NCBI GenBank assembly: GCA_947474455.1
Contig: CANJIL010000001.1
Location: forward strand, 124,001-188,000
Reading direction: 5' to 3'
DNA: 64,000 nucleotides
Source of the DNA: Hyphomonadaceae bacterium
GTDB lineage: Bacteria > Pseudomonadota > Alphaproteobacteria > Caulobacterales > Hyphomonadaceae
Positions 7,182 through 54,257 of this stretch are shown here, one piece after another. Position numbers and translations under genes: made by a program. The first letter of the stretch is position 1. Each line of letters opens with the position of its first letter. The notes below the pieces were generated by a model. It was not told the DNA's origin. It worked only from the letters and a program-made list of their open reading frames with translations, and did no database searches.

Positions 7182-8588
7182 TCAGGCCGTCTGCGCTGAA
7201 GCTTCGGGCGTCACCCCAGCTTCAACAGCTTCCTCAGGTACGGACTCGCCCGGCGGATCGGACGGCTGTTCCTCGACCTTCGGCGCAATGCTCAGGCCAC
7301 GCATCAGCGGTAGCAGCGAGATGGCGCAGAAGACGGACGCCACGGTGAAGGCCGCGCCTGGAAAATAGACCGGCGCGTTTGCGGACGTGAAATAGTGGAA
7401 TGTCTGCGTCATCATCAGGGGCGAGAATATGTTGGTCAGCGACTGCACGCTCGCGATGGCGCCCTGGAGTTCGCCCTGCGCGTTCTTGGGCGTACGCGAA
7501 GTCATGATCTGATTGAGCGCGGGCCCCAGCACGCCGGCGAAGGCGCCGAACGGAATGATGAGGTAGACCATCCATCCTTGCGTCGCGGCGGCGTAGGCGG
7601 CGAACGTCACGACACAGACAAGGAAGCCGAACACCGTCGTATTCGTTGCGCCGAAGCGCTTGATGATCGGGCCGACAAGGCCACCCTGCACAACGGCGGA
7701 TCCCACGCCGACAGCGGCCAGAGACCAGCCGAGCATTCCCGGATCCCATCCATAACGGACGGCTCCGAAATAGGCGAAGGTTGCTGGATAGACCCAGTGT
7801 GCGAAATTGAAGAGGCCGAGCGCCAGCATGAACCAGGCGAGGTAGGGCACCTTGATCAGATGTGCGAACGTGCCAAAGGCGTTGGCGCGTTTCCAGTCGA
7901 ACTTGCGCCGATGCTCCTTCTCCAGCGACTCCGGCAGGACGAATAGGCCATAGCAGAAATTGATCGAAGCGAGCGCCGCCGAAGCGAAGAACGGAAAACG
8001 CGGATCGAACTGGCCGAGGAATCCGCCGATGGCGGGCCCCAGAATGAAGCCGAGACCGAAGGCGGCGCCCAGCATTCCGTAGGCTTGTCCACGCTGATGC
8101 GGTTCTGTGACGTCTGCGATGTAGGCGGCCGCGGTGGAGTGGGTCGCACCGGAAATGCCAGACATGACGCGGCCAAGAAAAAGCAGCCAGACCGAATGGG
8201 CGAGGCCCATGATCACAAAGTCGATTGCAAGCGTGCCGATCGAAATCAGCAGAATCGGGCGGCGCCCGAAGCGATCGGAAAGTCCGCCGAGGATCGGGGC
8301 CACCAGGAAGTTCATGATCGCATAGACGACTGTGATGTATCCGCCCCATGGGGATGCATCCGACAGCATGGATTCAATCGGCAACTTGTTGCCGGCTTCG
8401 GCCAGGGCCTTGGCGCCCAAGAGAGCATCCTTGCCGTTCAGGAGTTCGGCCATCAGCTCCGGCATGGAAGGCATGATGACGGCGAAGCCCATCATGTCGA
8501 TGAAGACCGTTACGATGATGAAGAAGAACGCATTTTTTCCGAGCCGGCGCGATCCGGGCGGCGAAGGCGATGCGGCTGGGGCGGCCAT
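7182..8588 (-). CDS. MFS transporter, TetA/MdtG-like drug:H+ antiporter family
   Basis: A 468-aa transporter with about 12 hydrophobic segments. The cytoplasmic loop motif GGLSDRFGRRPILL between TM2 and TM3 and a central loop around KEHRRKFDWKRA are typical of the DHA1/TetA group. A large periplasmic insertion follows TM1 (about residues 45-80). The C-terminal tail is acidic and Pro/Glu-rich. It sits immediately upstream of gmhB with a 2-bp gap. Substrate unknown; resistance should not be assumed. The ATG at 8588 is preceded by GGAG about 8 bp away. Confidence 0.88.
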   Translation of the reverse strand: MAAPAASPSPPGSRRLGKNAFFFIIVTVFIDMMGFAVIMPSMPELMAELLNGKDALLGAKALAEAGNKLPIESMLSDASPWGGYITVVYAIMNFLVAPILGGLSDRFGRRPILLISIGTLAIDFVIMGLAHSVWLLFLGRVMSGISGATHSTAAAYIADVTEPHQRGQAYGMLGAAFGLGFILGPAIGGFLGQFDPRFPFFASAALASINFCYGLFVLPESLEKEHRRKFDWKRANAFGTFAHLIKVPYLAWFMLALGLFNFAHWVYPATFAYFGAVRYGWDPGMLGWSLAAVGVGSAVVQGGLVGPIIKRFGATNTTVFGFLVCVVTFAAYAAATQGWMVYLIIPFGAFAGVLGPALNQIMTSRTPKNAQGELQGAIASVQSLTNIFSPLMMTQTFHYFTSANAPVYFPGAAFTVASVFCAISLLPLMRGLSIAPKVEEQPSDPPGESVPEEAVEAGVTPEASAQTA

Positions 8589-9475
8589 GTCTGGCTCCGG
8601 GGATCGAGCGACCTGCGCGGATACGCTGGCCGGACGTGATCAGTCAATCTTCATGCGGTCACGATCCCGCAGCACAGTCCGCAGGCCACATATCCCAGGG
8701 AAAGCAAACAGGCGCGCATGTCCGGGCGCGATCAGGTACGCCTGCCAGGCGGCGAGCTCACGCTCGGCCAGCGGCGTGGCGAGCTTCATCCCGTCACGCA
8801 CGGCGAACATGTGTTTGCTGGAGCGCCAGGCATGGAAGTCCCACGGTCAGCGCGCACGACCCTGTCATTGGCGCTGGCGTTGTGCGCCCTGCGCCGCGCT
8901 CGCGTGCGGGCGAAGCGCAACGCATAGCTTTCCGAATACCTGATTGCGCGGCGCAGCGCCTCGATCCGCAGCGTCAGGCCATAGGGCGGCCAGCGGATTT
9001 GGAGGCGCGGCGATACCGGCCGTTCGCGCACTCGCGCGGTAGGGCCGGCAATATGCGGAAGACGGCATTCCATGTATCCGCCTGCGCCTGGTGTGACCGC
9101 GATCGGCGCGTTTTGGGCTCAGGCTGCGGTGATGCCCGCACGGGCGCGGGCTTGAGCGACAGCGCGAGAACGACGATGAAGCCCCGTGGCATCATCTCGA
9201 GACTGCGCACGCAGTCGAGTGCGGGTGCATGAAGTCGCGCGGCGCCCTTATCCGTTCGACAAGATGCTTCGAGGCGCCGACCAGGCCGCACATCTCGCCC
9301 CGCACCATGGCCGCAAAGCGGGGTAGCTCCGGCACCATGCTGACCCCGTCATCCGACGACGTCACCGGCTCGGGCCGGCAACGCAGGTAATCATATTCGT
9401 CGAAGGCTTTCTTCCTGCGCGCCGTGCATCGGTTAGCGTACAGACACTAGCCCTCGCGCAGGATATGATTCATCC
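8589..9475. other. 887-bp gene-poor stretch, possibly a decayed gene
   Basis: No convincing intact gene is seen between the MFS start and the Crp/Fnr gene. On the minus strand, short open segments in different frames look protein-like: one around 9230-9430 (FDEYDYLRCRPEPVTSS) and one around 8650-8850 (FAVRDGMKLATPLAERELAA). They are separated by stops and frame changes, as expected for a decayed gene. I could not name a family. The promoter of the MFS/gmhB pair should lie near 8589-8700. Confidence 0.35.
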
Positions 9476-10201
9476 GTGAAACATCCAGCGCCAAGCGAAA
9501 CACCGTTTCGGAAGGGGCTGCCTTCGCAAGTCACGCGTAAGCTTTCTCTCGTTCGAGGCGGGCAAGCACGGTTGCTGAAGACGGGCGACACGCTTTTCCA
9601 TGAGGGCGATGAACGCGAACGCATCTTTGTGGTCGAGTCAGGCTGGCTCAAGCTCTCGCGGACGCTGAGCGAAGGCCAACGCCAGATTGTGGGTTTCCCG
9701 ACTCGAGGCGCCATCCTCGGCTTCGAGGGGCCGTTGGATCATGTCAATCACTGTGAGGCGCTGACGGCTACGGTTGTGCATGCGTTTCCCGTCAGCGCGC
9801 TAATCCAATTATGTCATGATCCCCGCTTCGGTGGAACTCTCCTGCGCCAGCTCGGCATGCAGCTTGGAGCTGCGCAGACGCAACTGACTTCACTTGGCGC
9901 GCAATCGGCGGCGCAGAGAACGGCAGCGTTCCTGATCTTTATCGCTGATTCATGCTTTGACGATGAGCGCGAGTTCACACTGCCGATGCGCAGAATTGAC
10001 GTTGCTGAGTTTCTAGGACTTCGCCTCGAGACTGTCTCGCGCATGTTCGGGTCTTTTCAGCAGCGTGGCTGGATTTCCATGCAGGCTCTCTATCAGTGCC
10101 GAATAACCAATCGAAGAGCGCTGGCTGCGCTGGCCAGCGGATCCAGGACCATGAAATCCTTCCCTTTGCCGAGCCGACGAATTGCCGCGAATGAGTATTG
10201 A
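9476..10201 (+). CDS. Crp/Fnr family transcriptional regulator (FixK-like)
   Basis: A 241-aa regulator with an N-terminal cyclic-nucleotide-binding-like beta-roll (LKTGDTLFHEGDERERIFVVESGWLKL, residues about 35-62), a dimerisation helix and a C-terminal HTH (RRIDVAEFLGLRLETVSRMF, about 176-195) with the E-VSR recognition pattern of Fnr/FixK proteins. The N-terminal cysteine cluster of true Fnr is absent, so direct Fe-S oxygen sensing is unlikely. It begins with GTG at 9476; the upstream ATG at 9464 is closed at once by a stop. An FNR-type box lies 44 bp after its stop, before the next gene. Confidence 0.88.
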   Translation: MKHPAPSETPFRKGLPSQVTRKLSLVRGGQARLLKTGDTLFHEGDERERIFVVESGWLKLSRTLSEGQRQIVGFPTRGAILGFEGPLDHVNHCEALTATVVHAFPVSALIQLCHDPRFGGTLLRQLGMQLGAAQTQLTSLGAQSAAQRTAAFLIFIADSCFDDEREFTLPMRRIDVAEFLGLRLETVSRMFGSFQQRGWISMQALYQCRITNRRALAALASGSRTMKSFPLPSRRIAANEY

Positions 10202-10244
10202 AATCGCCGGCGACGCGTGCGGGCAGAACACCTAGATCGTCGCT

Positions 10245-10258
10245 ATGATATGAATCAA
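10245..10258. promoter_or_regulatory. FNR/FixK-type box
   Basis: The sequence ATGAT-ATGA-ATCAA matches the consensus TTGAT-N4-ATCAA at 9 of 10 defined positions. It sits 71 bp upstream of the ATG at 10330, a plausible activator position, and directly downstream of the Crp/Fnr gene. That gene's recognition helix (E-VSR) is the type that binds this sequence. Confidence 0.6.
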
Positions 10259-10329
10259 ACCTAGCGTCCCGTCGCGGGCGCACACTGGCGCAGGCGGGAT
10301 TTTCATCCCCCTCGTTTGGAAGGACATTC

Positions 10330-10713
10330 ATGCCGCACACTCACGCCGTCGTCTGGCTCGACCACCATACCGCGTCAATTCACGAGTTTGGCGCTGATGC
10401 GGTTCAGACGCGAACGTTCAAAGCGCACCATCATTCAACACGTCAGCATAACAGCGATGTCCGGGCCGTGCATGAGTTCTTCGGCGAGGTCTGCGATGCG
10501 CTGGCGTCCGATAAGGAGGTGCTGGTGACTGGCTCCCACACCGCTCTGGCCGACTTCAAGCACTACGTCATCAAACACCGAGCCGCGCTTGGGCCCCGGA
10601 TTTCCGGCTGGGAGATTGTTGATCATCCCACGGACGGTCAACTCGTCGCCTTCGCGCGTGAGTTTTTCGTCAAGTACGACAACTTGAAGGGTACGCGTCC
10701 GCTCCCACAATGA
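10330..10713 (+). CDS. small eRF1-like / 'translational machinery' family protein
   Basis: This 127-aa protein begins HAVVWLDHHTASIHEFG, contains the DKEVLVTGSHTALADFKHYV segment and ends DHPTDGQLVAFAREFF. The pattern resembles small proteins annotated as translational machinery or eRF1-domain-like in Bradyrhizobium and Burkholderia, often found among microoxic stress genes. Function is not established. It is His-rich near residues 36-45 (AHHHSTRQH). It follows an FNR-type box and has a GGAAGGA Shine-Dalgarno at the expected distance. Induction under low oxygen by the adjacent Crp/Fnr regulator is inferred. Confidence 0.65.
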   Translation: MPHTHAVVWLDHHTASIHEFGADAVQTRTFKAHHHSTRQHNSDVRAVHEFFGEVCDALASDKEVLVTGSHTALADFKHYVIKHRAALGPRISGWEIVDHPTDGQLVAFAREFFVKYDNLKGTRPLPQ

Positions 10714-10915
10714 GGCGTCTCTCCGCGTTAATGAAGGACCATCTTTTGCGATTAACCGCCGGTTGAACGTCCGTATCTCATCAACCAGGTTGGCGCATTC
10801 GGGCCTTCCACTTCGGCGCGGGCCTGGCCCCAGTCACGAAATCAAACAGGAACGTAGTCAACCTGACCGCGTTCTCGCCAATCCTGTCGCTGGCCACAAA
10901 GCCGGCAAGTTGGAC

Positions 10916-11413
10916 CTACGAATTGCGCGCGGCCAGGTGGGCGGCGAGCTTGTCGAGCGTCTGACCGCCGAATTGGACAGCGCCGAAGCCGACGCCCGCG
11001 TCGCGGTGCGCGCTTGTTGGGTGCATCTGGCGTAAGGTGAGAACCGTCTTCCCGTCCGTTTGCGCATCGAAGGTAACCAGCATGCGAAACTTGCCTGGAT
11101 CGTCATCCTTGTCAGAACCGTGATCGACCTCGATCAGGCGCGGTCGGTCGATGCGGAGAAAGGTCATGCGATTGTCGTAGCGCGTGCCCCAGCCGACCAT
11201 ATCAAACCGCCATACACGGCCCTCTCGAACGTCGATCTCGTGCGTCTCGATTGTGAGGCCCTTGGGGCCGAACCACATCACGAGCTGTTCGGGGTCGGTC
11301 CACGCGTCGAAGACGCTCTCGCGGGGCGCATCAATGACGCGGGTAATGACGATCTCGCGGTCGAGCGGCCACGCGGCCCATGCGGATTCTGTCTGCGCGG
11401 AGCTGTTGGTCAT
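10916..11413 (-). CDS. SRPBCC family protein (AHSA1/START-like) of an ArsR pair
   Basis: A 165-aa protein of the AHSA1-like SRPBCC fold. Family signatures are ITRVIDAPRESVFDAWTDPEQLVMWFGPKG near the N-terminus and a C-terminal helix ending GGQTLDKLAAHLA. Such proteins have a hydrophobic cavity, but this protein's ligand is unknown. The start at 11413 (MTNSSAQ) is chosen because it overlaps the stop of the upstream ArsR gene by 1 bp (TAATG); longer starts run into that gene. The ArsR-AHSA1 gene pair is a widespread two-gene arrangement. Confidence 0.87.
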   Translation of the reverse strand: MTNSSAQTESAWAAWPLDREIVITRVIDAPRESVFDAWTDPEQLVMWFGPKGLTIETHEIDVREGRVWRFDMVGWGTRYDNRMTFLRIDRPRLIEVDHGSDKDDDPGKFRMLVTFDAQTDGKTVLTLRQMHPTSAHRDAGVGFGAVQFGGQTLDKLAAHLAARNS

Positions 11414-11751
11414 TACGTCACGTCCTTCTTCTTGCGGGCCAGGTGAGCCTCCAACCGATCGAGGCGGCTTTCCCACGTCGCGATATGTGCGCGAAGCCAG
11501 TCGTCGGCGCCCAGAAGAGCACCAGGGGTGAGAGAGCATGTTCGCACGCGCCCGGATTTTTCCGACGAGACCAGGCCGCCGCTTTCGAGCACGCGGATGT
11601 GCTTCAACAGTGTCGGCAGGCCAATCTCGAATGGCCTAGCGAGTTCGCCGACCGTGGCGTCTCCGCTGCACAGGCGAGCGACGATGGCGCGCCGGGTCGG
11701 ATCGGCCAGGGCCGCGAAGGCAAGGTTCAGGCGATGATCAAAGTTTGCCAT
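11413..11751 (-). CDS. ArsR family winged-helix regulator
   Basis: A 112-aa HTH protein beginning MANFDHRLNLAFAALADPTRRAIVARL, the classic ArsR/SmtB opening, with recognition region ELARPFEIGLPTLLKHIRVLESGGLV. No obvious metal-binding cysteine pair (CVC) is present, as is usual for the AHSA1-linked subgroup. A longer in-frame extension to 11913 exists but lacks family similarity, so the ATG at 11751 is preferred. It is translationally coupled to the AHSA1 protein downstream. Confidence 0.88.
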   Translation of the reverse strand: MANFDHRLNLAFAALADPTRRAIVARLCSGDATVGELARPFEIGLPTLLKHIRVLESGGLVSSEKSGRVRTCSLTPGALLGADDWLRAHIATWESRLDRLEAHLARKKKDVT

Positions 11752-12020
11752 ATGGCGAACTAATTCGAGAAGCCCTTGAAAGTCAAGATTAGTTTGCCGG
11801 GCGGCGAACTTATTCTCAGGACCTTCATCGATGTGCTGTAGGTCGGGAAAGGCGAGCCGGGCCTGGAGCGCACGCTGGTCAGTTTGGAGCGGGTGGAGTT
11901 TGGCGATAGGCAAGTTCTCGTCGTCGCTTAGTTGGCGGACGCCGCGTTTTGAGCAATGATCTGGAACAGTGGCTTTGCTCTGCGTACCTGAGACGGGCCT
12001 AGAGCCGAGGACATTTTGCG

Positions 12021-12791
12021 ATGATGTCAGCGCGTCAGTCAGCTTTTCGAGCCGAATACCGCAGGCGGATCGAACGTTGGTACAATCCTGCCCTGCACGT
12101 CCTGTCGATTTATGTTCTCGGCGGGTTGGCGCTCTGGTTCTTCATTTCGAATCTGCGTGCGCCGATCGGCTGGTGGCAGTGGGCGGTTGTTCCGGTCGTC
12201 TTGCTGGTCAGCAACATGCTGGAATGGGCGATGCACCTCTATGTGATGCATAGGCCGCGGCGCAATCCGATTGCGCGGGCGATTTACAGCCGGCACACGC
12301 TGATGCATCACCAGTTCTTCACCGAGCACAACTACACGATCGAAGGGCCGCGTGATTTCCGCATCGTGCTGTTTCCACCGTATACGCAGATCGCTGCACT
12401 CGTCCTCGCCGCCCCCGGATCATTCGTGCTGGGTCTGGTGCTTGGGGCCAATGCCGGATGGCTGTCGATGATCATGGTGGTCAGCCACTACATGATCTAC
12501 GAGTTCTTCCACTTCTGCTGCCATGTGCCCGACAACTGGTTCGTGCGGAACGCGCCGTTTGTGAACACCATCCGCCGTCACCATGTGGCGCATCACGAGC
12601 AGGCGATCATGATGCACTACAACATGAATCTGACGTTTCCGATCTCGGACTGGCTGTTTGGCACAAGCGACCTCAGGCGCGGACTGCTTGGCACGCTGTT
12701 CAACGGCTATTCGCAAAAGCATGTGAAACAGGAGTTGCGGCGCGCCCGGCCTTTTGCAGCCGCTGCGTCCGCCGAACACGATCCGACATGA
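12021..12791 (+). CDS. fatty acid hydroxylase / sterol desaturase family membrane enzyme
   Basis: A 256-aa integral membrane di-iron oxygenase. Histidine boxes are visible: EWAMHLYVMHR, HTLMHHQFFTEH and HHVAHHE. Hydrophobic segments occupy residues about 25-45, 50-70, 115-140 and 145-165. The family hydroxylates or desaturates lipids or sterols; the substrate here is unknown. The preferred start is ATG 12021 or the adjacent ATG 12024. Its stop overlaps the next gene's start (ATGA), indicating cotranscription with the DUF6166 gene. Confidence 0.88.
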   Translation: MMSARQSAFRAEYRRRIERWYNPALHVLSIYVLGGLALWFFISNLRAPIGWWQWAVVPVVLLVSNMLEWAMHLYVMHRPRRNPIARAIYSRHTLMHHQFFTEHNYTIEGPRDFRIVLFPPYTQIAALVLAAPGSFVLGLVLGANAGWLSMIMVVSHYMIYEFFHFCCHVPDNWFVRNAPFVNTIRRHHVAHHEQAIMMHYNMNLTFPISDWLFGTSDLRRGLLGTLFNGYSQKHVKQELRRARPFAAAASAEHDPT

Positions 12792-45739: not shown

Positions 45740-46837
45740 ATGCCCATGGCCGCCAAGAGCGATTCGCCGAAGCTCATCAACCTCGCCCTGCAAGGTGGCG
45801 GCGCGCATGGCGCGTTTTCGTGGGGTGTCCTCGACCGGCTGCTGGAAGATCCGCGTGTTGAGATCGAGGCGATCACGGGCGCTTCCGCTGGCGCGATGAA
45901 CGCCGTGGCGCTGGCCGCAGGCTTCGCCGAGGGCGACCGCGACGAGGCGAGAGCGTCCCTGCGGCGCTTCTGGAATGGCGTGCTCCACGAAGCGCGCAAC
46001 AGCCCTCTACGCCGCTCGCCCATCGAGGCCATGCTCGGCGGCTGGAATCTCGACGCCTCGCCCGCCTACGTGATGTTTGATCTCGTGACGCGGATCGCGA
46101 GCCCCTATGACTTCAACCCGTTCAACCTCAATCCGCTGAAGGATCTCGTCGTCCAGCTGGTCGATTTCGACCGCGTGCGTAAGTCGAAGGTGAAGGTTTA
46201 TATCTCCGCCACCAATGTGGAGACCGGCCGCGCCCATGTGTGGGAGAAGAAGGATCTGACCGCCGACCATGTGATGGCGTCGGCCTGTCTGCCCTGGCTG
46301 TTCCAGGCCGTCGAGATTGATGGCGTGCCCTATTGGGACGGCGGTTTCACCGGAAACCCCGCCATGTGGCCGCTGTTCGACAACTGCCATTCCGACGATG
46401 TGGTGCTCGTGCAGATAAACCCGATCCGCCGCGAAGGTGCGCCGACGACGGCGCGCGACATCATCAACCGTTTGAACGAGATCACCTTCAACTCCTCGTT
46501 GCTGCATGACCTTCGCTCGGTTGACTTCGTGGCGCGGCTGATCGAGGCCGGCAGGCTGGACGGCACAGGCTATCGCCGCATGCTGATGCACGCGATCGCA
46601 GACGAGGCGGAGCTCTCCAAACTTGGCGCTTCGTCGAAGTTCAATGTCGAGCCGGAATTCATCGACCTCTTGTTTGAACGCGGGCGCGAGGCGTCGGAAA
46701 ACTGGCTACGCACCAGCTTCCGTCACGTCGGGACCCGTTCAACCGTGAACGTCCGCAGAATGTTCCAGGGCGAAGACGACGCCCTCGACGGCGACCAGCT
46801 GAAGCCGCCACGCAGGCGGCCAAAGGCGGCGGGATAG
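45740..46837 (+). CDS. patatin-like phospholipase
   Basis: A 365-aa protein with the patatin catalytic dyad. It has the oxyanion loop GGGAHGAFSWG (residues 19-29), nucleophile S49 in GASAG, and an Asp in YWDGGFTGNP. There is no signal peptide, so it acts in the cytoplasm or at the inner membrane. The C-terminal region after about residue 250 is helical, with a basic end (KPPRRRPKAAG). The stop abuts the stop of the convergent ligase gene with no intervening base (46837/46838). Confidence 0.92.
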   Translation: MPMAAKSDSPKLINLALQGGGAHGAFSWGVLDRLLEDPRVEIEAITGASAGAMNAVALAAGFAEGDRDEARASLRRFWNGVLHEARNSPLRRSPIEAMLGGWNLDASPAYVMFDLVTRIASPYDFNPFNLNPLKDLVVQLVDFDRVRKSKVKVYISATNVETGRAHVWEKKDLTADHVMASACLPWLFQAVEIDGVPYWDGGFTGNPAMWPLFDNCHSDDVVLVQINPIRREGAPTTARDIINRLNEITFNSSLLHDLRSVDFVARLIEAGRLDGTGYRRMLMHAIADEAELSKLGASSKFNVEPEFIDLLFERGREASENWLRTSFRHVGTRSTVNVRRMFQGEDDALDGDQLKPPRRRPKAAG

Positions 46838-48148
46838 CTAGAAGAAGTCGATCTGCCGTGGGTCGCCGCCGTCCCAGGCGCGCTGGACTTCGGCTGACAG
46901 GAACAGGCCGCCAAGGACCAGCACGGTCATCCCGTCACGCTCCGCGCGCCGCTTCGCCATCGCCGCCGCCTCCGATGTGTTTGTTGCGACGGTCACATCC
47001 GTCGAGCGTTTCCGGAAAGTTTCCGCAAACAGCGCGACATCGGCGCCAGACTTGTAAGCTCGCGTCAAGATAAAATGCTCGAAGCGCTCTGCGACGCGCT
47101 CGGCGATGGCGGCGACTTCCTTCGATGCGGATACGCCGAACACGACTAGTGTTTTCTTACGCGGCGTGAACTCTAGGAAGGTGCGCGTGACGGCTTCGAG
47201 CGCCCGGGGCGTGTGGCCGACGTCGATCCAAAGATCCGGCGCCGACGCCACCTTTTCCAGTCGCCCCGGCCAGCGTGTGCGACCCAGCGCCGCCAGCATG
47301 GCGAAATGTCGATCGGCGTTTTCCTCCGGCTTGAGTCCCAGCCAGACCTCCGCAGCCCGCAGCGCCGTAACGGCGTTGTCCGCCTGATGCTTACCCGCTA
47401 GCTTCAGCCTTACCTCCTGGTCCGCGACCGAGGGTGCCGCCGTGAAGCCATAGGTGAAGCGTGCGCCCTCTTGGGTGTTGATCACAGGACCCACTCGGCG
47501 GCTGGCCGTCGCCGGCAGTGTCGCCTTTCCCGAAAGGTCCGCGTAAGCCGCAATGCGCCGGCCGAGCGCTTCGCTGATGGAAGGCGATAGGACCAAGCAT
47601 CCGCCCGGCGCCAGGGCGTCGACCTTGTCATAGGCGATCAGCTCTTCGGTCGCGCCAAGCAATTCGGTGTGTTCCAGCTCGATCGAGGTGAGGGCGGAAA
47701 CGTTGGCGCGGACGGAACGAATGGGGTCGTAGCGGCCGCCAATGCCAGCTTCCCACACAATGGCGTCCGGCTTTTCCTGCTGGAACCAGAGGATTGCGAG
47801 CATGAAGAGGAACTCGAACGACCCCATCCGGTCGCCTTCCGGCAGCGCGCGGTTGAAGGCGAGCACGGTCTCCGCATGGCGCTCGAAATCCGCCTGCGAG
47901 ATCATGTCGTCCCCGAGCATGAAGCGCTCGCAAACATCAAACAGATGTGGGGAGGTAAAACAGCCGACACGCAGGCCAGCCGCTTCCAAGGCCGATGTGA
48001 TGAAGCGTGCAGTCGAGCCTTTGCCATTCGTGCCGGTGACGGCGATCGAACAGCGCGCCAACCCTGCCCGGTCGATCCGGTGCGCCTGGTAGAAAAGCTC
48101 GATGCGATGAAGCCCGATGCCATCGCCGAATTTCGGAAGACCAAACAT
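46838..48148 (-). CDS. FolC/Mur-ligase-family ATP-dependent amide ligase
   Basis: A 436-aa ligase with the folylpolyglutamate synthase layout: P-loop GTNGKGST (residues 39-46), CFTSPHLF, WEAGIGGRYDPIRS, SIELEHTELLG and IDVGHTPRALEA. FolC normally reads GLGGRLDATN and DGAHNP here; both are altered, so the substrate is probably not simple folate. It overlaps the upstream CphA-like ATP-grasp gene by 1 bp (TGATG), so the two ligases are translationally coupled. Together they resemble a split, FolC-based version of cyanophycin synthetase. A housekeeping FolC role cannot be excluded without searching the rest of the genome. Confidence 0.8.
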   Translation of the reverse strand: MFGLPKFGDGIGLHRIELFYQAHRIDRAGLARCSIAVTGTNGKGSTARFITSALEAAGLRVGCFTSPHLFDVCERFMLGDDMISQADFERHAETVLAFNRALPEGDRMGSFEFLFMLAILWFQQEKPDAIVWEAGIGGRYDPIRSVRANVSALTSIELEHTELLGATEELIAYDKVDALAPGGCLVLSPSISEALGRRIAAYADLSGKATLPATASRRVGPVINTQEGARFTYGFTAAPSVADQEVRLKLAGKHQADNAVTALRAAEVWLGLKPEENADRHFAMLAALGRTRWPGRLEKVASAPDLWIDVGHTPRALEAVTRTFLEFTPRKKTLVVFGVSASKEVAAIAERVAERFEHFILTRAYKSGADVALFAETFRKRSTDVTVATNTSEAAAMAKRRAERDGMTVLVLGGLFLSAEVQRAWDGGDPRQIDFF

Positions 48149-49116
48149 CAGTTACTCAGGCACGCGTTCAGCATTCTTGTCCAGATGGCGCGGATCAGAT
48201 CGGATCGGCCAGCGTCTTCCAGCGTGCGCAGGCCCGGATTGCCGTTGGCCTCTATCACGACGAGCTCGGAAAGGTCGCGACTTGCAGAAATATCAAACAT
48301 GTCGACGGCGCCGATTCGCAAGCTCAACGCCTCTGTGGCCGCGATGGCCAGCGTCGCCAGTGGGGTCGGCACGGTCTCGGACACCTGCTCGATAGCGCCG
48401 GCCGCGCTAAGATTGCGCCGGCCCGGTAGGCGCACGCGCTCGCCGGACAGCGGCACGCGGGACGCATCGCCGCTGATGGCGGAGAGGGGAAGCGGGGAAA
48501 CGCCGCTGGCGACGACGCGCTGGTTCAAGTTGGTGAGAAGTTCTCCAAGCGTCGATCGGCCATTTCCGACCAGCGCGGGCTCGCCCTTGATAGAATGGAA
48601 GACAGCGCGGCCATCCTGTACCAGTACACGATGCTCGGCCCCCTCCAGCAGGGGCTCGATCAAGAACGCCTCGAACTCAACCGCCACGCGAGCGACGTAG
48701 TCGTGCAGCGCAGCTTCATTCCTGACTATTTCCGCAAACGTCCCGCCCGATCCGAGATTGGGCTTGCAGAACACCGGATAACCGAGGCGCGCAGCGAACG
48801 CCGCTGCATCCATCGCCTCCCGGCCCGGCGCCCGCATCGCGATCCGGCGCGCCTGGGCGAAGAACAACCCGCCGGGGATCACGGCCAGCCCCCGCGATTG
48901 CAGCACAGATTTGGTATGCGCCTTGTCGCGGGAGACAGTGTAGGCGCCGGCGCTGTTGATCGCGTAGGCGCAGATATTCCCCCCTCCACCGAGCACGAAG
49001 CGCTCGCCCTTCGAAATGCGGAAGAGATAGCCTTCGCCCGCATCGAGATCCTCGAAACGCGCGCCGATCGCTTCGGCGGCGTCCTTCGCATAGCGGGCTG
49101 AATCTGGAACCGGCAT
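48148..49116 (-). CDS. ATP-grasp ligase, CphA (cyanophycin synthetase)-like domain
   Basis: A 322-aa stand-alone ATP-grasp protein. YTVSRDKAHTKSVLQSRGLAV, YPVFCKPNLGSGGTFAEIV (glycine-rich loop), EHRVLVQDGRAVFHSIKGEP, GNGRSTLGELL, RRNLSAAGAIEQ and VVIEANGNPGL match in order the ATP-grasp domain of cyanophycin synthetases (V-x-DGR, GDG..TI.EL, NLSTGG, E-x-N-x-GPG). It lacks CphA's N-terminal domain and its fused Mur domain; instead a separate FolC-like ligase gene follows. Substrates are unknown; carboxylate-amine ligation with ATP is expected from the fold. Confidence 0.82.
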   Translation of the reverse strand: MPVPDSARYAKDAAEAIGARFEDLDAGEGYLFRISKGERFVLGGGGNICAYAINSAGAYTVSRDKAHTKSVLQSRGLAVIPGGLFFAQARRIAMRAPGREAMDAAAFAARLGYPVFCKPNLGSGGTFAEIVRNEAALHDYVARVAVEFEAFLIEPLLEGAEHRVLVQDGRAVFHSIKGEPALVGNGRSTLGELLTNLNQRVVASGVSPLPLSAISGDASRVPLSGERVRLPGRRNLSAAGAIEQVSETVPTPLATLAIAATEALSLRIGAVDMFDISASRDLSELVVIEANGNPGLRTLEDAGRSDLIRAIWTRMLNACLSN

Positions 49117-49268
49117 CGCGGCGCTCTAGCAGGCGCACGTGATCGGGGAAACAGGCGCAGTCGCAGCACGATTCTATGCACGTAGCAGGGAAGCTAAAAA
49201 CAGCGCTTCTCCAGAGCAAGCCAAGAAATCACGATGTCCTGCGGCCACCCACGTATGTTCGCGCTGCC

Positions 49269-49945
49269 TCCGGCGAGGAACGGCTCCCAAACCTGTCGCC
49301 TCGCGGACAAACTGGCGATGGCGATCCAGATTGGCCACCTGCTCCCCGGGCGCTCCGTTAGGCGAGATCGCCGGCGCTAACAATGTCAGCCGCACCATCG
49401 TGCGCGCTGCGCTTCAGCGTCTCGAGGCGCAGGTGCTGGCCGAGATCATTCTCAACAAGGTCGCCCGCGTGCGCGGAGCCGACCCACCCGCGGCCAGCGA
49501 TATGATCAAATTGCACGTGCAGCTGACCGTCCTTCCGGCCCGCAAGGCGGCGCGGGCAACCCCGGCAAGGATCGCGCGCCTCCGTCAGTTCGTCGATATG
49601 CTGGAGCGAGTGGCCGAGGAAGACGGCCCAGCGGAGGAATTCCAGCATCTCCGCATCGGCGACTCCCGCGAGCTGTTCGAGGCGGCGAGGCCGGTTTTGG
49701 CCGAGCGATTGGATCTGGCCGCCCCGGTCACGCCGTATCATTCGCGCGCGATGGATGATGTCCGCTCCGCAACCGGTCAAGCCGAGACGGCAAAGTTCAG
49801 CCGCGACATCCTGGAAGCCATTCAGTCGAAATCACAGGACGCGGCCGCGAAAGTTGCCGAACGCCTGCTGCGCCGTCATGCCGAGCTGACATTGACGCTC
49901 GCTATCAAGCCCAGGGCGTCACGGAACACCGCTTCTCACGGTTGA
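49269..49945 (+). pseudogene. GntR/FCD family regulator, frameshifted
   Basis: The start of a GntR HTH is read in one frame (RLADKLAMAIQIGHLLPG, about 49296-49350). The rest continues in another frame (GEIAGANNVSRTIVRAALQRLEAQVLAEI from about 49366), ending in an FCD-like C-terminus (FSRDILEAIQSKSQDAAAKVAERLLRRHAEL). The frames join at about 49350-49365, implying a one-base indel. The FCD core also looks shortened. The 49139 start sometimes predicted for this frame has no family similarity. Either a true pseudogene or a sequencing error in a G/C run. Confidence 0.75.
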
Positions 49946-49956
49946 CGGTGAGCCCG

Positions 49957-52083
49957 CTACCAGAGCCGGACGCGCTCGTCAGGCGACAGATAGAGTTTGT
50001 CGGTCGGACTGATCCTGAAGGCCGCGTACCATGCGTCCATGTTGCGCACCACGCCGTTAACGCGATAGCGGTTGGGAGCATGGCTGTCGCCATCCAGCAT
50101 GGAGCGTGCAAGCTCATCGCGCATCTTGCCGCGGTATGAGCGCGCATAGGCCAGGAAAAAACGCTGGTCTCCGGTGAGGCCGTCGATCACCGGCGCCTGC
50201 TTGCCGTTGAGCGACAGCTTCCATGCGGCATAGGCGATCTCAAGCCCGGCAAGGTCGCCGATATTCTCGCCGAGCGTGCCCAGCCCGTTCACGCATTTGC
50301 CGACCCACGGACAATACCCGTCATACTGCTCGATCAGGGCCTCGGCCTTGGTCATGAACCGCGCGTCGGTCTGCTTGGTCCACCAGTTGCGGTTGCGGCC
50401 GGCGCCGTCGAACTGGCGGCCGCGATCGTCAAAACCATGGCTGATCTCGTGGCCGATGACGGCGCCGATCCCGCCATAGTTCACGGCGGGGTCGGCGGCG
50501 GGATCGAAATACGGAGCCTGCAGAATGCCCGCCGGCATGGTGAAAGTGTTGGACAGCGGATTGTAGAACGCATTGACCACATGGGCTGGCGTGGGCCAGC
50601 GGTCGCGATCAACCGAACTGCGCAGATCCACGCGCTGCTCATTCCAGCCATATTCAAAGACGGAATAAAGATCCTCGAACAGCTTGCCCGGCGCGACGTC
50701 CAGCGAGGAATAGTCCTTCCACATCTCCGGATGTCCGATCTGGGGCTTGAGCGCCCGCAATTTTTCCAGCGCCTCGGCGCGCGTGGCGTCGTCCATCCAG
50801 TCGAGCGACTGCATGCGCGCTGCGAAGGCCATGCGGATGTTGGCGACTATCGCGTCGACACGGGCCTTCTGGCCGGGCGGGAAGTGCTTCTTCACATAGA
50901 GTTCGCCCACGCCATCGCCCAGATAGGCGTTGACGATGCCGATGGCCCATTGCCAGCGGGCGGGCTTCTCCTCAAGGCCGGCGAGGCGTCGCGAGAAGAA
51001 CTCGAAATGGCTGTCTGCAAAAACCTTCGGCAGATAGTCCGCGAAGCTGTTGGCGAAGTGGAACTCCATCCAGAGCTTCCAGTCCTCCACAGACTCGGAA
51101 GGAATGAGCTTCGCGATATCCGCAACGGCCGTCTGGTCAGTCACGACAAAACGGTCGGACTTGTCGAACCCGGCTTCGTTCAGAAAGGCATCCCAGCCGA
51201 AATCCGGTGCGAACGCCTTCAGCTGCGAGAGCGACATGCTGCGAAGCGCCTGGTCAGCGCTGATCGAGCGGTCTTCATCCGTGTGCGCCCGCGCGATCTT
51301 GCGTTCGAGATTGTAGATGCGCAAGGCGCCGCCTTCCGGGTCGGGATTGCCCAGAAGACGCAGGATGATGACGACATAGGCGCGATAAGCGAACCGCGCC
51401 GACTCATCCTCCATCCCCGGCGTGATGTAATAGCCCCGATGCGGCATGCCAAGTCCAGCCTGCGACAGCCACACGGCGTTGGCGTCCGGGTCGGCTGGGC
51501 TGGAGGCGACGCTTATGCCGATCGGAGAGTTGTAGCCGATGACGCCCATCAGCCGCACGAGCTCTTCGTGTGTTTTCACCGCGCGAATACGGTCGAGATG
51601 TGGCTGCAGCGGCGCGATCCCGCGCGCTTCGATCGTCTTCTCGTCCATCGCGGCGGAGTAGAGATCCGCGATCTTCCGCTCCAGCGTGCCATGCGCCGGG
51701 TTCGAGGCGATGATCTCCTCGATCATCTGGCGCACCACGGCGTCGGACTTGTCCATCAGCTCTTCAGCAGCGCCAATCGACATCTTGTCCGGCGGCAACT
51801 GATAGGAAGCGAGCCAGTCGCTGTTCACATAGTTGAAGAAGTCTTCCCCCGGCGTCGTCATCTCGCCCGGCGCCGGCTCGTTGGATTTCAGCCGCGGGGC
51901 GGAGGAGAAAACCTGATCGCTGTTCTGCAGCAGCCGGTCGACAGCCCGCTCGTCGAGCCCGTTCTGCGCCGTCTGATCCCGTGCCGCCGGCGGCGATACG
52001 CACGCCGCAAGCAATGTCGCTACGGCGGCGGCCGCCTGCGCGAGGCGGTGGAGCAGGCGTGCGGCCAAGGGGCGTTTCCTCAT
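49957..52083 (-). CDS. M13 family zinc metallopeptidase, lipoprotein (copy 2)
   Basis: A 708-aa neprilysin/PepO-like endopeptidase. The N-terminus is a lipoprotein signal (AAAVATLLAACVSP; lipobox LAAC), so it is anchored at the envelope. The zinc motif H545-E-x-x-H549 (VIGHEISHGFDDRG) and downstream ENIGDLAGLEIAY Glu ligand are intact. The C-terminal RVNGVVRNMDAWYAAF ... DKLYLSPDERVRLW matches the family end. The start at 52083 is chosen because an in-frame extension to 52395 runs into the upstream paralogue. It is paralogous to the gene 120 bp upstream. Confidence 0.93.
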   Translation of the reverse strand: MRKRPLAARLLHRLAQAAAAVATLLAACVSPPAARDQTAQNGLDERAVDRLLQNSDQVFSSAPRLKSNEPAPGEMTTPGEDFFNYVNSDWLASYQLPPDKMSIGAAEELMDKSDAVVRQMIEEIIASNPAHGTLERKIADLYSAAMDEKTIEARGIAPLQPHLDRIRAVKTHEELVRLMGVIGYNSPIGISVASSPADPDANAVWLSQAGLGMPHRGYYITPGMEDESARFAYRAYVVIILRLLGNPDPEGGALRIYNLERKIARAHTDEDRSISADQALRSMSLSQLKAFAPDFGWDAFLNEAGFDKSDRFVVTDQTAVADIAKLIPSESVEDWKLWMEFHFANSFADYLPKVFADSHFEFFSRRLAGLEEKPARWQWAIGIVNAYLGDGVGELYVKKHFPPGQKARVDAIVANIRMAFAARMQSLDWMDDATRAEALEKLRALKPQIGHPEMWKDYSSLDVAPGKLFEDLYSVFEYGWNEQRVDLRSSVDRDRWPTPAHVVNAFYNPLSNTFTMPAGILQAPYFDPAADPAVNYGGIGAVIGHEISHGFDDRGRQFDGAGRNRNWWTKQTDARFMTKAEALIEQYDGYCPWVGKCVNGLGTLGENIGDLAGLEIAYAAWKLSLNGKQAPVIDGLTGDQRFFLAYARSYRGKMRDELARSMLDGDSHAPNRYRVNGVVRNMDAWYAAFRISPTDKLYLSPDERVRLW

Positions 52084-52141
52084 ATCCCGTTGAGGCCAGT
52101 GTTTCGCGCAGGTTTGCGAAGTCAAGCGCGCGGCGCCGATC

Positions 52142-52177
52142 AAAAGGAAAAGCCCGCAGTTCCTGAGAAATGCGGGC
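52142..52177 (-). terminator. intrinsic terminator after first M13 gene
   Basis: On the minus strand a 7-bp stem GCCCGCA / TGCGGGC (52171-52177 and 52152-52158) is followed by TTTTCCTTTT. It lies just after the stop of the 52203-54257 gene, so the second M13 gene probably has its own promoter or depends on read-through. Confidence 0.85.
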
Positions 52178-52202
52178 CCCTGCCTCTCATAACGTAACAA
52201 GC

Positions 52203-54257
52203 CTACCAGATACGAACGCGTTGTTCCGGCGGAATGTACATCTTGTCGCCCGGCTGGACGTTGAACGCTGCATACCATTCGTCGATGTTCGGCACGACGC
52301 CATTGACGCGGTACATCGGCGGCGAGTGCGGATCGATGGTCAGCAGCTGCCGCGCCATGTCTTCGCGCGCCATCGCCCGCCACACCTGGCCCCATGACAG
52401 GAAGAAGCGCTGGTCGCCGGTGTATTTCACGCCGTTCACCTCGATGACCGGGGCTTCCTTCTCGCCAAGCGACTGCTTGTAGGCGGTATAGGCCATGATC
52501 ATGCCGCCAAGGTCGCCGATGTTCTCACCCGTGGTGAGCGCGCCCTTGATGCACGCGTCGGGGAAGGGGCAGTATTTGTCGTACTGCGCATTCAGCGCTT
52601 CTGTTTTGCTCTTGAACTTGGCCTTTGTCTCGGCGGTCCACCAGTCGCGCTGCACGCCCATGTCGTCGAAGGCCGCGCCCTGATCGTCGAAGCCGTGGCC
52701 AATTTCGTGGCCGATCACGGCGCCGATGGCGCCGTAGTTCACCGCCGGGTCCGCGTTCACGTCGAAGAATGGCGGCTGCAGGATGCCGGCCGGGAAGGTG
52801 ATCTGGTTCATCAGCGGGTTGTAGGACGCGTTCACGGTCTGCGCGTTCATGCCCCACTCCTCGCGGTCGACCGGACCGCCGAGGCGTGAGACCTGACGGT
52901 TCCACTCGAACTGCCGCGCCGCCATCACGTTCTCGAACAGCTTACGCTTGTCGACCTGCATGGCCGCATAGTCCCGCCACTTGTTGGGATAGCCCACACG
53001 CACCTCGAAGTTGCCCAGCTTCTTCAGCGCCTCCGCGCGCGTCGGCTCATCCATCCAGTCGAGCTTTTCGAGGCGCGATTTCAGAGCAGAGTTCAGGTTG
53101 CCGACGAGGGCTTCCATCTTGGTCTTGTTACCCGACGGGAAGAACTTGGCCGCATAAGCCTCGCCCAGCGCCTCGCCAATGTTCTGGTCGAGCAGCTGCA
53201 CGCCGCGCTTCCAGCGGTCGCGTTTGGCGGTCACACCCGACAGGGTCTTGTTGAAGAACTCGAAGCGCGCATCATCGAATGCCTTGGTCAGGTAGGCTGC
53301 GTTGTCCGAAGCGACCTGGAAGGTGAGGTACTTCTTCCACACCGCGATCGGTTGGCTGTCGACAAGCCTGGCGCCCGCCGTGATCGATGTGTCGCCATAC
53401 GCCACCATGTTCTCCAGCTTGCCGATGCCGGCATCGGCGGCGAACGTGTCGAGATCAATGTTGGGAACCAGTTTGCGGAAGTCCGCGGCGCTCATCGCCT
53501 TGAATGCCTTGTCGGTGACGCGGAGTTCTTGCTGCGACCAATGCCCCTTGGCGATCTCGGTCTCGAATTTGATCACCGTATCTGCAGACGCGGCAGGGGC
53601 GGCATCACCCAGCAGTTCGAAGATCTTGGTCACATAAGCTTTGTAGGCGGTGCGATAGACGTCGTACTTCTCGCCCTTCGCGAGATAGTAGTCGCGGTCC
53701 GGCATGCCGAGACCGTCCTGCGCGCCCCAGACAGCATAGCGCTTGGGATCAGCCGTATCGGCCTCGACGCCGAGGCCGAATGGCGAGGAATAGCCGACCT
53801 TGGCGATTACCTTCAGAAGACCCGCCTTGTTCGTGATACTGTTGATCTCGTCAAGATAGGGCTTCAGCGGATCGACCCCTCGCGTCTCCAGCGCCTCTTC
53901 ATCCATCCAGCTGGCGTAGAAGTCCGCCGCCTTGGCGACGTTGGAGCCGGCAGCCGGCGGCGTCGCGGCAAAGCCGTCGATGATGGTTTTCACATCGTTC
54001 TCGGACTTCTCACCCAGCGCGTCGAACGCGCCATAGCGCGGCCTGTCAGTCGGCATCTGGAAGGTACTGAGCCATGTGCCGTTGGCGTAGTGAAAGAAAT
54101 CGTCGCCCGGTTTCACCGTCGTGTCCGCGTTCGTGAGATCGATGCCGAACGCGCCGATTGCCGCCTTGGGCGTTTCCGCAGCCGGGGCAGGTTTCTCGGG
54201 AGAGCACGCGGCAAGCAATGCAGCCGCAGACGCGGCCAGGAGAAGAGTCATTCGCAT
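52203..54257 (-). CDS. M13 family zinc metallopeptidase, lipoprotein (copy 1)
   Basis: A 684-aa member with lipoprotein signal MRMTLLLAASAAALLAAC (Cys 18), a Pro/Ala linker, and intact zinc motif H517-E-x-x-H521 (VIGHEIGHGFDDQG) with the GENIGDLGGM Glu ligand. The end, MYIPPEQRVRIW, is family-typical. It acts on peptides in the periplasm; targets are unknown. It is paralogous to the downstream gene and separated from it by a terminator. It is divergent from phoR. Confidence 0.94.
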   Translation of the reverse strand: MRMTLLLAASAAALLAACSPEKPAPAAETPKAAIGAFGIDLTNADTTVKPGDDFFHYANGTWLSTFQMPTDRPRYGAFDALGEKSENDVKTIIDGFAATPPAAGSNVAKAADFYASWMDEEALETRGVDPLKPYLDEINSITNKAGLLKVIAKVGYSSPFGLGVEADTADPKRYAVWGAQDGLGMPDRDYYLAKGEKYDVYRTAYKAYVTKIFELLGDAAPAASADTVIKFETEIAKGHWSQQELRVTDKAFKAMSAADFRKLVPNIDLDTFAADAGIGKLENMVAYGDTSITAGARLVDSQPIAVWKKYLTFQVASDNAAYLTKAFDDARFEFFNKTLSGVTAKRDRWKRGVQLLDQNIGEALGEAYAAKFFPSGNKTKMEALVGNLNSALKSRLEKLDWMDEPTRAEALKKLGNFEVRVGYPNKWRDYAAMQVDKRKLFENVMAARQFEWNRQVSRLGGPVDREEWGMNAQTVNASYNPLMNQITFPAGILQPPFFDVNADPAVNYGAIGAVIGHEIGHGFDDQGAAFDDMGVQRDWWTAETKAKFKSKTEALNAQYDKYCPFPDACIKGALTTGENIGDLGGMIMAYTAYKQSLGEKEAPVIEVNGVKYTGDQRFFLSWGQVWRAMAREDMARQLLTIDPHSPPMYRVNGVVPNIDEWYAAFNVQPGDKMYIPPEQRVRIW

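Follow-up and report, generated by a model that had tools for sequence, protein, structure and literature searches.

A FolC-like Mur ligase and its ATP-grasp partner: a candidate two-protein system for a small peptide-like or conjugated metabolite in alphaproteobacteria

Cyanophycin synthetases are among the closest described systems to the gene pair reported here. In CphA1, as presented in the cited portions of PMC9427784 and PMC9262961, an ATP-grasp ligase domain (G domain) is found together with a MurE-like Mur ligase domain (M domain). The cited portion of PMC9262961 also describes the N domain of CphA as binding cyanophycin, and CphA2 as joining beta-Asp-Arg dipeptides; the Mur domain of CphA appears close to MurE and MurF in the cited excerpt of PMC11915815. 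In this work, we characterize two adjacent genes which encode members of the same two superfamilies as separate proteins, located at positions 46838-49116 of the window, i.e., the whole 64,000-nucleotide stretch analysed (contig CANJIL010000001.1, positions 124,001 to 188,000) from a Hyphomonadaceae bacterium. The first gene encodes an ATP-grasp amide ligase, and the second a FolC-like Mur ligase, hereafter FolC2. Since the Mur domain of CphA appears to lie near MurE and MurF, and FolC2 lies next to FolC, the pair constitutes a different combination.

The co-inheritance of the two genes is so regular that their products very probably cooperate in making a compound. We give about even chances to a broader reading, namely that a distinct ATP-grasp family and a Mur ligase family neighbouring FolC constitute a new two-protein system. 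In various alphaproteobacteria, and in one gammaproteobacterium or more, this system would build a new small metabolite, peptide-like or conjugated, and would arrive at the cyanophycin synthetase logic by way of another Mur ligase lineage. No paper recognisably dealing with this gene pair was found in the open-access literature searched. Genomes and loci are designated below by our own G and L numbers.

Identity of the two ligases

A first-pass annotation, made from the sequence alone, had proposed a two-gene ligase cassette at this position; both frames were found there, on the minus strand (the annotation gave none), with the ATP-grasp gene upstream. All the motifs that it quoted are present, namely VQDGR (residue 166), GNGRSTLGEL (184), NLSAAG (235) and EANGNPG (289) in the ATP-grasp protein, and GIGGRYDP (135) and GHTPRALE (311) in FolC2, and so is the TGATG junction (AACTGATGTTT), a one-base overlap in which the ATP-grasp stop and the FolC2 start have one A in common. 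As GC-rich DNA gives long chance frames (the longest open frames in 20 shuffles of the window reached 260-351 codons), frame length is a weak argument and the case for both genes rests on homology.

The description of the second protein as FolC-like and not MurE-like was borne out by curated models, FolC2 scoring 244.3 bits against folC (TIGR01499, cut-off 162.65) and 56.4 bits against MurE (TIGR01085, cut-off 257.3, not passed), with the window genome carrying its own murE; the description needs the nuance that the C-terminal part of FolC2 also matches murE models, under their cut-offs, and that its GHTP resembles the HTP motif of MurE. The AlphaFold model of FolC2 (mean predicted local distance difference test score, pLDDT, 91.6) found its best Foldseek match in 2vor, the folylpolyglutamate synthase of Mycobacterium tuberculosis (E-value 5.3e-27). 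A second folC, which the annotation had proposed looking for, was found in the window genome (G000:C22:18299-19492, 316.7 bits) adjoining trpB, trpA and accD. More broadly, a separate FolC above the cut-off occurs in 24 of the 27 genomes with FolC2, and was not found in G004 and G010 (both drafts with at least 100 contigs) nor in G775. The housekeeping folC of G023 (G023:C1:3184337-3185561), included in this count, lies in two frames of which the first only exceeds the cut-off, reflecting a frameshift or a sequencing error.

In a tree of 24 FolC2, 39 housekeeping FolC and 5 MurE/CphA rows, the FolC2 rows formed one clade (support 97/98) and the housekeeping rows another (97/82). Left out of these 68 rows were the FolC2 sequences of G003, G006 and G012, the partial housekeeping frames L208 (G001) and L223 (G023), same-gene duplicates, and the CphA loci L148, L149 and L157, which lack a recognisable search motif. 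A wider tree held 23 FolC rows, which now included sequences from Haloarcula, Nonomuraea, Paenibacillus, Thermomicrobium, Burkholderia, Azoarcus and Methylorubrum, and FolC2 fell outside all of them (97/96 versus 91/81). The approximately unbiased (AU) test rejected a grouping of FolC2 with the 17 FolC rows from alphaproteobacteria (Methylorubrum among them) at a borderline value only (p-AU 0.041), and did not reject its grouping with the full set of 19 proteobacterial rows (p-AU 0.174). By sequence relationships, FolC2 is thus a family separate from housekeeping FolC, with which descent from a proteobacterial FolC is compatible. The second folC and the tree rule out FolC2 as the housekeeping folC; a recent duplication of an alphaproteobacterial folC is rejected at the borderline value only. 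The folC model labels FolC2 a folate synthase; as the tree sets it apart as a family and it has a regular partner, the genomes that carry it are likely mis-annotated.

The residues of FolC2 reveal both conservation and change relative to housekeeping FolC. The Mur-type positions Gly39, Gly42, Lys43, Gly44, Ser45, Glu133, His160, Lys175, Arg296, Asp309 and His312 are the same in 24/24 FolC2 and 39/39 housekeeping rows. Conversely, Thr/Ser109 is replaced by Gly, Asp159 (38/39 housekeeping rows) by Glu, Gly177 (36/39) by Asp, and Asn313 (the Asn of HNP) by Thr or Ser, each in 24/24 FolC2; Asn144 (the Asn of DATN) is Arg in 23 of the 24 and Lys in one, and Ser414 (the Ser of GSLYL) is Gly in 23/23. 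Some of these changed positions presumably belong to the sites at which FolC binds pterin and glutamate.

The best family matches of the ATP-grasp protein are cyanophycin synthetase models and structures, with a model match (E-value 2.1e-23) far under that model's cut-off; against TIGR02068 (cut-off 850) it scored 77.6 bits, and FolC2 39.3 bits. Its AlphaFold model (mean pLDDT 88.3) matched TeCphA1 best in Foldseek (E-value 4.9e-19), RimK also being among the fold matches. A quick tree with 85 rows gathered the 26 rows of the family, chosen by score beforehand, in one clade (Shimodaira-Hasegawa-like approximate likelihood ratio test, SH-aLRT, 99) apart from CphA and also from a clade of roughly 600-amino-acid proteins which are probably N-acetylglutaminylglutamine synthetases; several long branches leave the exact sister of the family unsure. 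Within that limit, the separate clade led us to reject the idea that the protein is a fragment of a split CphA.

The portion of PMC9427784 cited here names Lys220, Lys261, Arg309, Asn394, Asp431 and Glu450 of TeCphA1, together with Glu215 (primer arginine), His267 and Arg458. The first six align with Lys65, Lys118, Arg163, Asn235, Asp272 and Glu289 of the ATP-grasp protein, which are invariant in 14/14 aligned rows; by alignment, the ATP-binding and acyl-phosphate residues of the CphA G domain are kept in the family. This core is the part of the initial likening to CphA that stands; an N domain, a MurE-type M domain and a cyanophycinase are the parts that failed. In the model alignment, residue 55 of 322 corresponds to cyanophycin synthetase position 205, leaving 54 residues ahead of it, and the N domain (~160 residues) is absent.

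These observations bear on whether the pair is a cyanophycin synthetase divided in two that produces a storage polymer resembling cyanophycin, an explanation that we judge highly improbable. It draws on the CphA1 G domains being the nearest solved relatives of the ATP-grasp protein, and on the substrate-binding Asn394 of CphA1 having its counterpart in the invariant Asn235. Yet it faces the missing N domain, a Glu215 position that is Thr60 here and variable in the family, positions His267 and Arg458 likewise not conserved, and a FolC2 that differs in type from the MurE/MurF-like M domain. A search for cyanophycinase (TIGR02069), the one cyanophycin-degrading enzyme looked for, gave no match above the cut-off in 24 genomes; the match in G005 stayed below it (94 versus 126.6 bits, E-value 1.5e-26).

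Pairing and co-inheritance of the two genes

All 15 genomes of the window's genus carry FolC2, and 13 of the 15 the ATP-grasp gene (broken over two contigs in G003). In genomes of the same family outside this genus (G015-G024), both genes were found in 2 of 10, G020 and G023. The pair was also identified at L092, L095 (the gammaproteobacterium Achromatium palustre), L097, G080, G162, G265, G612, G596 and G680; L092 comes from a metagenome bin classified as Nitrospirota, for which contamination is possible. Even samples indicate that the pair is rare, with ATP-grasp matches above 200 bits in 7/385 genomes of the class and 4/398 of the phylum, own genome included. Both genes are held by 24 of the 26 loci checked, with the ATP-grasp gene always first and on the same strand; the nearest FolC2 start codon lies at most 8 nucleotides from the ATP-grasp stop in 21 of these 24, and at 13, 17 and 73 nucleotides in the rest. 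Regarding mobile carriage, relatives of the ATP-grasp gene were not found in viral contigs by an exact-pattern search, nor in plasmids at E <= 1e-15. Beside the Achromatium pair, another protein resembling an ATP-grasp ligase is encoded at L095:5988-6926 (minus strand).

Co-inheritance was assessed in 60 genomes of the genus of G612, which is probably Bradyrhizobium. FolC2 was found in 21 of them at E <= 2.0e-129, and the ATP-grasp family in 20 at E <= 2.1e-90, plus a fragment adjoining FolC2 in G810; these are the same 21 genomes, and neither gene was found at those levels in the remaining 39. The co-occurrence gives a Fisher p of 1.3e-16, or 5.0e-15 without counting the G810 fragment, values that the kinship of the genomes makes overstated. 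A housekeeping-type FolC is also present in all 21. Seven weaker ATP-grasp matches had been set apart, consisting of the G810 fragment, counted as it adjoins FolC2, and six frames of 316-323 amino acids. The latter (e.g., G782:C1:8686434-8687144), all in genomes without the pair, seemingly represent a second ATP-grasp family. In G808, a partial second FolC2 copy (G808:C1:8557885-8558511; positions 229-433, 179.7 bits) lies about 3 kilobases from the full pair.

The two genes are adjacent in 20 of the 21 genomes. The exception, G784 (same record as G778 and L091, Bradyrhizobiaceae bacterium Ga0074131), has them unlinked: FolC2 keeps the neighbours that it has in relatives, and the ATP-grasp gene, located on another contig, groups with that of L092 and not with the genus. 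Ahead of FolC2, and partly overrunning its frame, the locus weakly resembles the ATP-grasp typical of the genus (34% over residues 10-92, E-value 8e-4 in a comparison with this locus alone), and the matching stretch may be a remnant of it; a foreign ATP-grasp would then appear to have replaced a lost partner.

The distances of the two families correlate across 22 genomes (r 0.82; as high in 0/2000 permutations), and a partial correlation given housekeeping FolC amounts to r 0.63 in 16 genomes. Altogether, the ligase fell outside the housekeeping clade in the tree, a second folC was present, and the pairing is kept far beyond local synteny, the three points on which the first-pass annotation had staked its cassette.

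Proposed function, alternatives and gene neighbourhood

We consider it moderately probable that the cassette encodes two ATP-dependent amide-bond ligases acting on the same molecule. FolC2 would use Mur ligase chemistry, in which a substrate carboxylate is converted into an acyl phosphate and then coupled to the amine of a second building block, probably an amino acid, as suggested by its P-loop GTNGKGS, Lys175 at the place of the carbamylated lysine, His160, and Asp309-x-x-His312. The ATP-grasp protein would follow the chemistry of cyanophycin synthetase and glutathione synthetase, tied to Lys65, Lys118, Arg163, Asp272 and Glu289: it would activate the carboxylate at the C-terminus of what is probably a peptide-like intermediate, and add a further amino acid. 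This division of labour would be that of the M and G domains of CphA, placed in separate proteins and with another Mur ligase lineage. Given these two features and the lack of a polymer-anchoring N domain, the product is more likely to be a short soluble metabolite, peptide-like or conjugated, than a storage polymer, and the pair may form a two-step amide-ligase pathway leading from common metabolites to such a product. The earlier proposal of amide bonds formed on a non-folate substrate survives in this conditional form, as we infer from the catalytic residues kept and the FolC-fixed positions changed that both enzymes would be active, in sequence, on a substrate other than folate. A role in tetrahydromethanopterin glutamylation was not supported, Mch of the methanopterin one-carbon pathway being found in 0/24 genomes and positive in 3/14 controls.

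Several observations weigh against this proposal. In 16 genomes, the distances of FolC2 correlate with those of housekeeping FolC (r 0.80) slightly better than with those of ATP-grasp (r 0.73), so that much of the distance correlation reflects shared descent. In G007 and G011, FolC2 has no ATP-grasp partner and adjoins another Mur-ligase-like gene. The converse is seen in G106, G145, G044 and L098, where a divergent ATP-grasp of the clade lacks an adjoining FolC2; the FolC search found none in G106 and only FolC of the housekeeping clade in G145 and G044, and in these three genomes the divergent ATP-grasp may act alone. To these are added the union of FolC2 with all proteobacterial FolC rows, which the AU test did not reject, the meaning of the changed FolC positions, which rests on structural literature, and the gene neighbourhood, since no neighbour common to the pair across families would name a pathway. 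The pairing is strong, not absolute.

The gene found in G007 and G011 (L065:1904-3112 and L069:3513-4715) overlaps FolC2 in the place of the ATP-grasp gene, has the P-loop, lacks the C-terminal Asp-x-x-His, and was found in these two alone of 61 genomes (E <= 1e-25); it is a possible alternative partner of FolC2. In L098, a Methylococcaceae bin, the solo ATP-grasp (1739-2731) lies between rtcB-like and rtcR-like genes, so named from a look at the sequence. Could one of the two proteins be a scaffold or regulatory paralogue, leaving the ATP-grasp ligase as the sole enzyme, or the reverse? The four places with ATP-grasp and no adjoining FolC2, and the two genomes with FolC2 and no ATP-grasp, speak for this possibility, but the Mur-type catalytic positions are kept in 24/24 FolC2 and the ATP-binding and acyl-phosphate positions in 14/14 ATP-grasps, and we regard it as improbable.

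Alternatively, the pair could modify folate by lengthening or capping its glutamate tail, e.g., with residues that are alpha-linked or other than glutamate. FolC2 has its closest similarity to FolC, its descent from a proteobacterial FolC is compatible with the tree tests, and RimK-like ATP-grasps are able to add alpha-glutamates. Moreover, L168 of G162 (about 7882-12541) displays the order accD-folC-ATPgrasp-FolC2, with 14 and 15 nucleotides between the first three frames, and the pair there looks co-transcribed with the housekeeping folC. This operon was nevertheless seen in one genome; in G265, of the same genus, folC and the pair are on different contigs, whose ends could hide adjacency. 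Also opposed to a folate tail are the alterations in FolC2 of positions fixed or nearly fixed in the 39 FolC rows (109, 144, 313 and 414), and the absence of the pair from most searched relatives outside the window's genus. Such a role therefore seems unlikely to us, and the preferred reading continues to be two ligases acting on a non-folate molecule.

The surroundings of the pair in the window were also examined (Table 1).

Table 1. Positions of the paired genes and of the adjacent regulator gene in the window.
Feature	Position	Strand	Remarks
ATP-grasp amide ligase, 322 amino acids	48148..49116	-	Relative of the cyanophycin synthetase G domain; precedes FolC2
FolC-like Mur ligase (FolC2), 436 amino acids	46838..48148	-	Clade separate from housekeeping FolC; second gene
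GntR-type regulator gene, divergent from the pair	49139..49945	+	Apparently frameshifted

The GntR-type gene matches its relative over two frames, hence its frameshifted appearance in the window genome. In G005, G007, G009 and G011, relatives of this gene adjoin the pair or its variant, with pieces in G001 and G006, and the regulator may be part of the system; c21 is an antisense frame of this gene. Two adjacent M13-type peptidase genes (49957-54257, minus strand) lie upstream of the pair, and in part of the window's genus only are such genes co-directional with it and close to it; c12 appears to be one of them. A further neighbour, c17, was seen next to the pair in G002 and G014 and gave no family match.

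On the other side, a patatin-like gene (45740-46837), convergent to the pair, ends directly against the FolC2 stop, followed on the plus strand by murI, aguB and an aguA-like gene. The first-pass annotation had placed aguA-aguB-murI next door, and this was upheld for AguB and MurI (TIGR00067), which exceed curated cut-offs; the AguA-like protein scored 250.9 bits against agmatine deiminase TIGR03380, under the cut-off of 381.8. The annotation had also floated a link, by which the pair would use the products of these genes, putrescine and D-glutamate. The genes do occur near the pair, whole or in part, in the window and in relatives such as G003, G004, G011, G013, G014, G020 and G023; they are, however, convergent to it and not co-directional, and AguB was found at E <= 1e-60 in none of the 60 genomes of the genus of G612, 21 of them with the pair, the same search being positive in 4/14 control genomes. 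As the pair occurs in that genus with no AguB found, agmatine metabolism is not required and the neighbourhood is most simply explained by family-level synteny; the proposed link is largely refuted and we find it scarcely credible.

If the pair makes a metabolite of its own, its presence in 21 of 60 genomes and absence from the others within one genus provides a ready strain set for comparative metabolomics. If the proposed function is true, the pair would represent an independent pairing of an ATP-grasp with a Mur ligase, and a test case for the origin of two-ligase peptide builders like cyanophycin synthetase.

Comparison with known systems

Among the known systems, CphA1 brings together the same two superfamilies, in fused form, whereas here two separate proteins are found, without the N domain, with a Mur ligase of the FolC side and with the primer-binding residue changed. 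CphA2 (7ta5, 8fxi) has an ATP-grasp domain related to that of the window, but is one long chain, and no source of cyanophycin is evident for the window pair. N-acetylglutaminylglutamine synthetase (TIGR03103) is a related ATP-grasp making a small amide; the window protein reaches 61.4 bits against a cut-off of 569, is shorter, is without the other part of the model, and belongs to a different clade if the clade of longer proteins corresponds to that family. FolC2, in turn, shares with MurE the HTP motif and a C-terminal similarity, and remains far under the MurE cut-off. FolC (TIGR01499) is the closest fold to FolC2, which passes its cut-off and has the same catalytic residues; in contrast to FolC, FolC2 constitutes a separate clade, coexists with the housekeeping folC and differs at several positions that are fixed in FolC.

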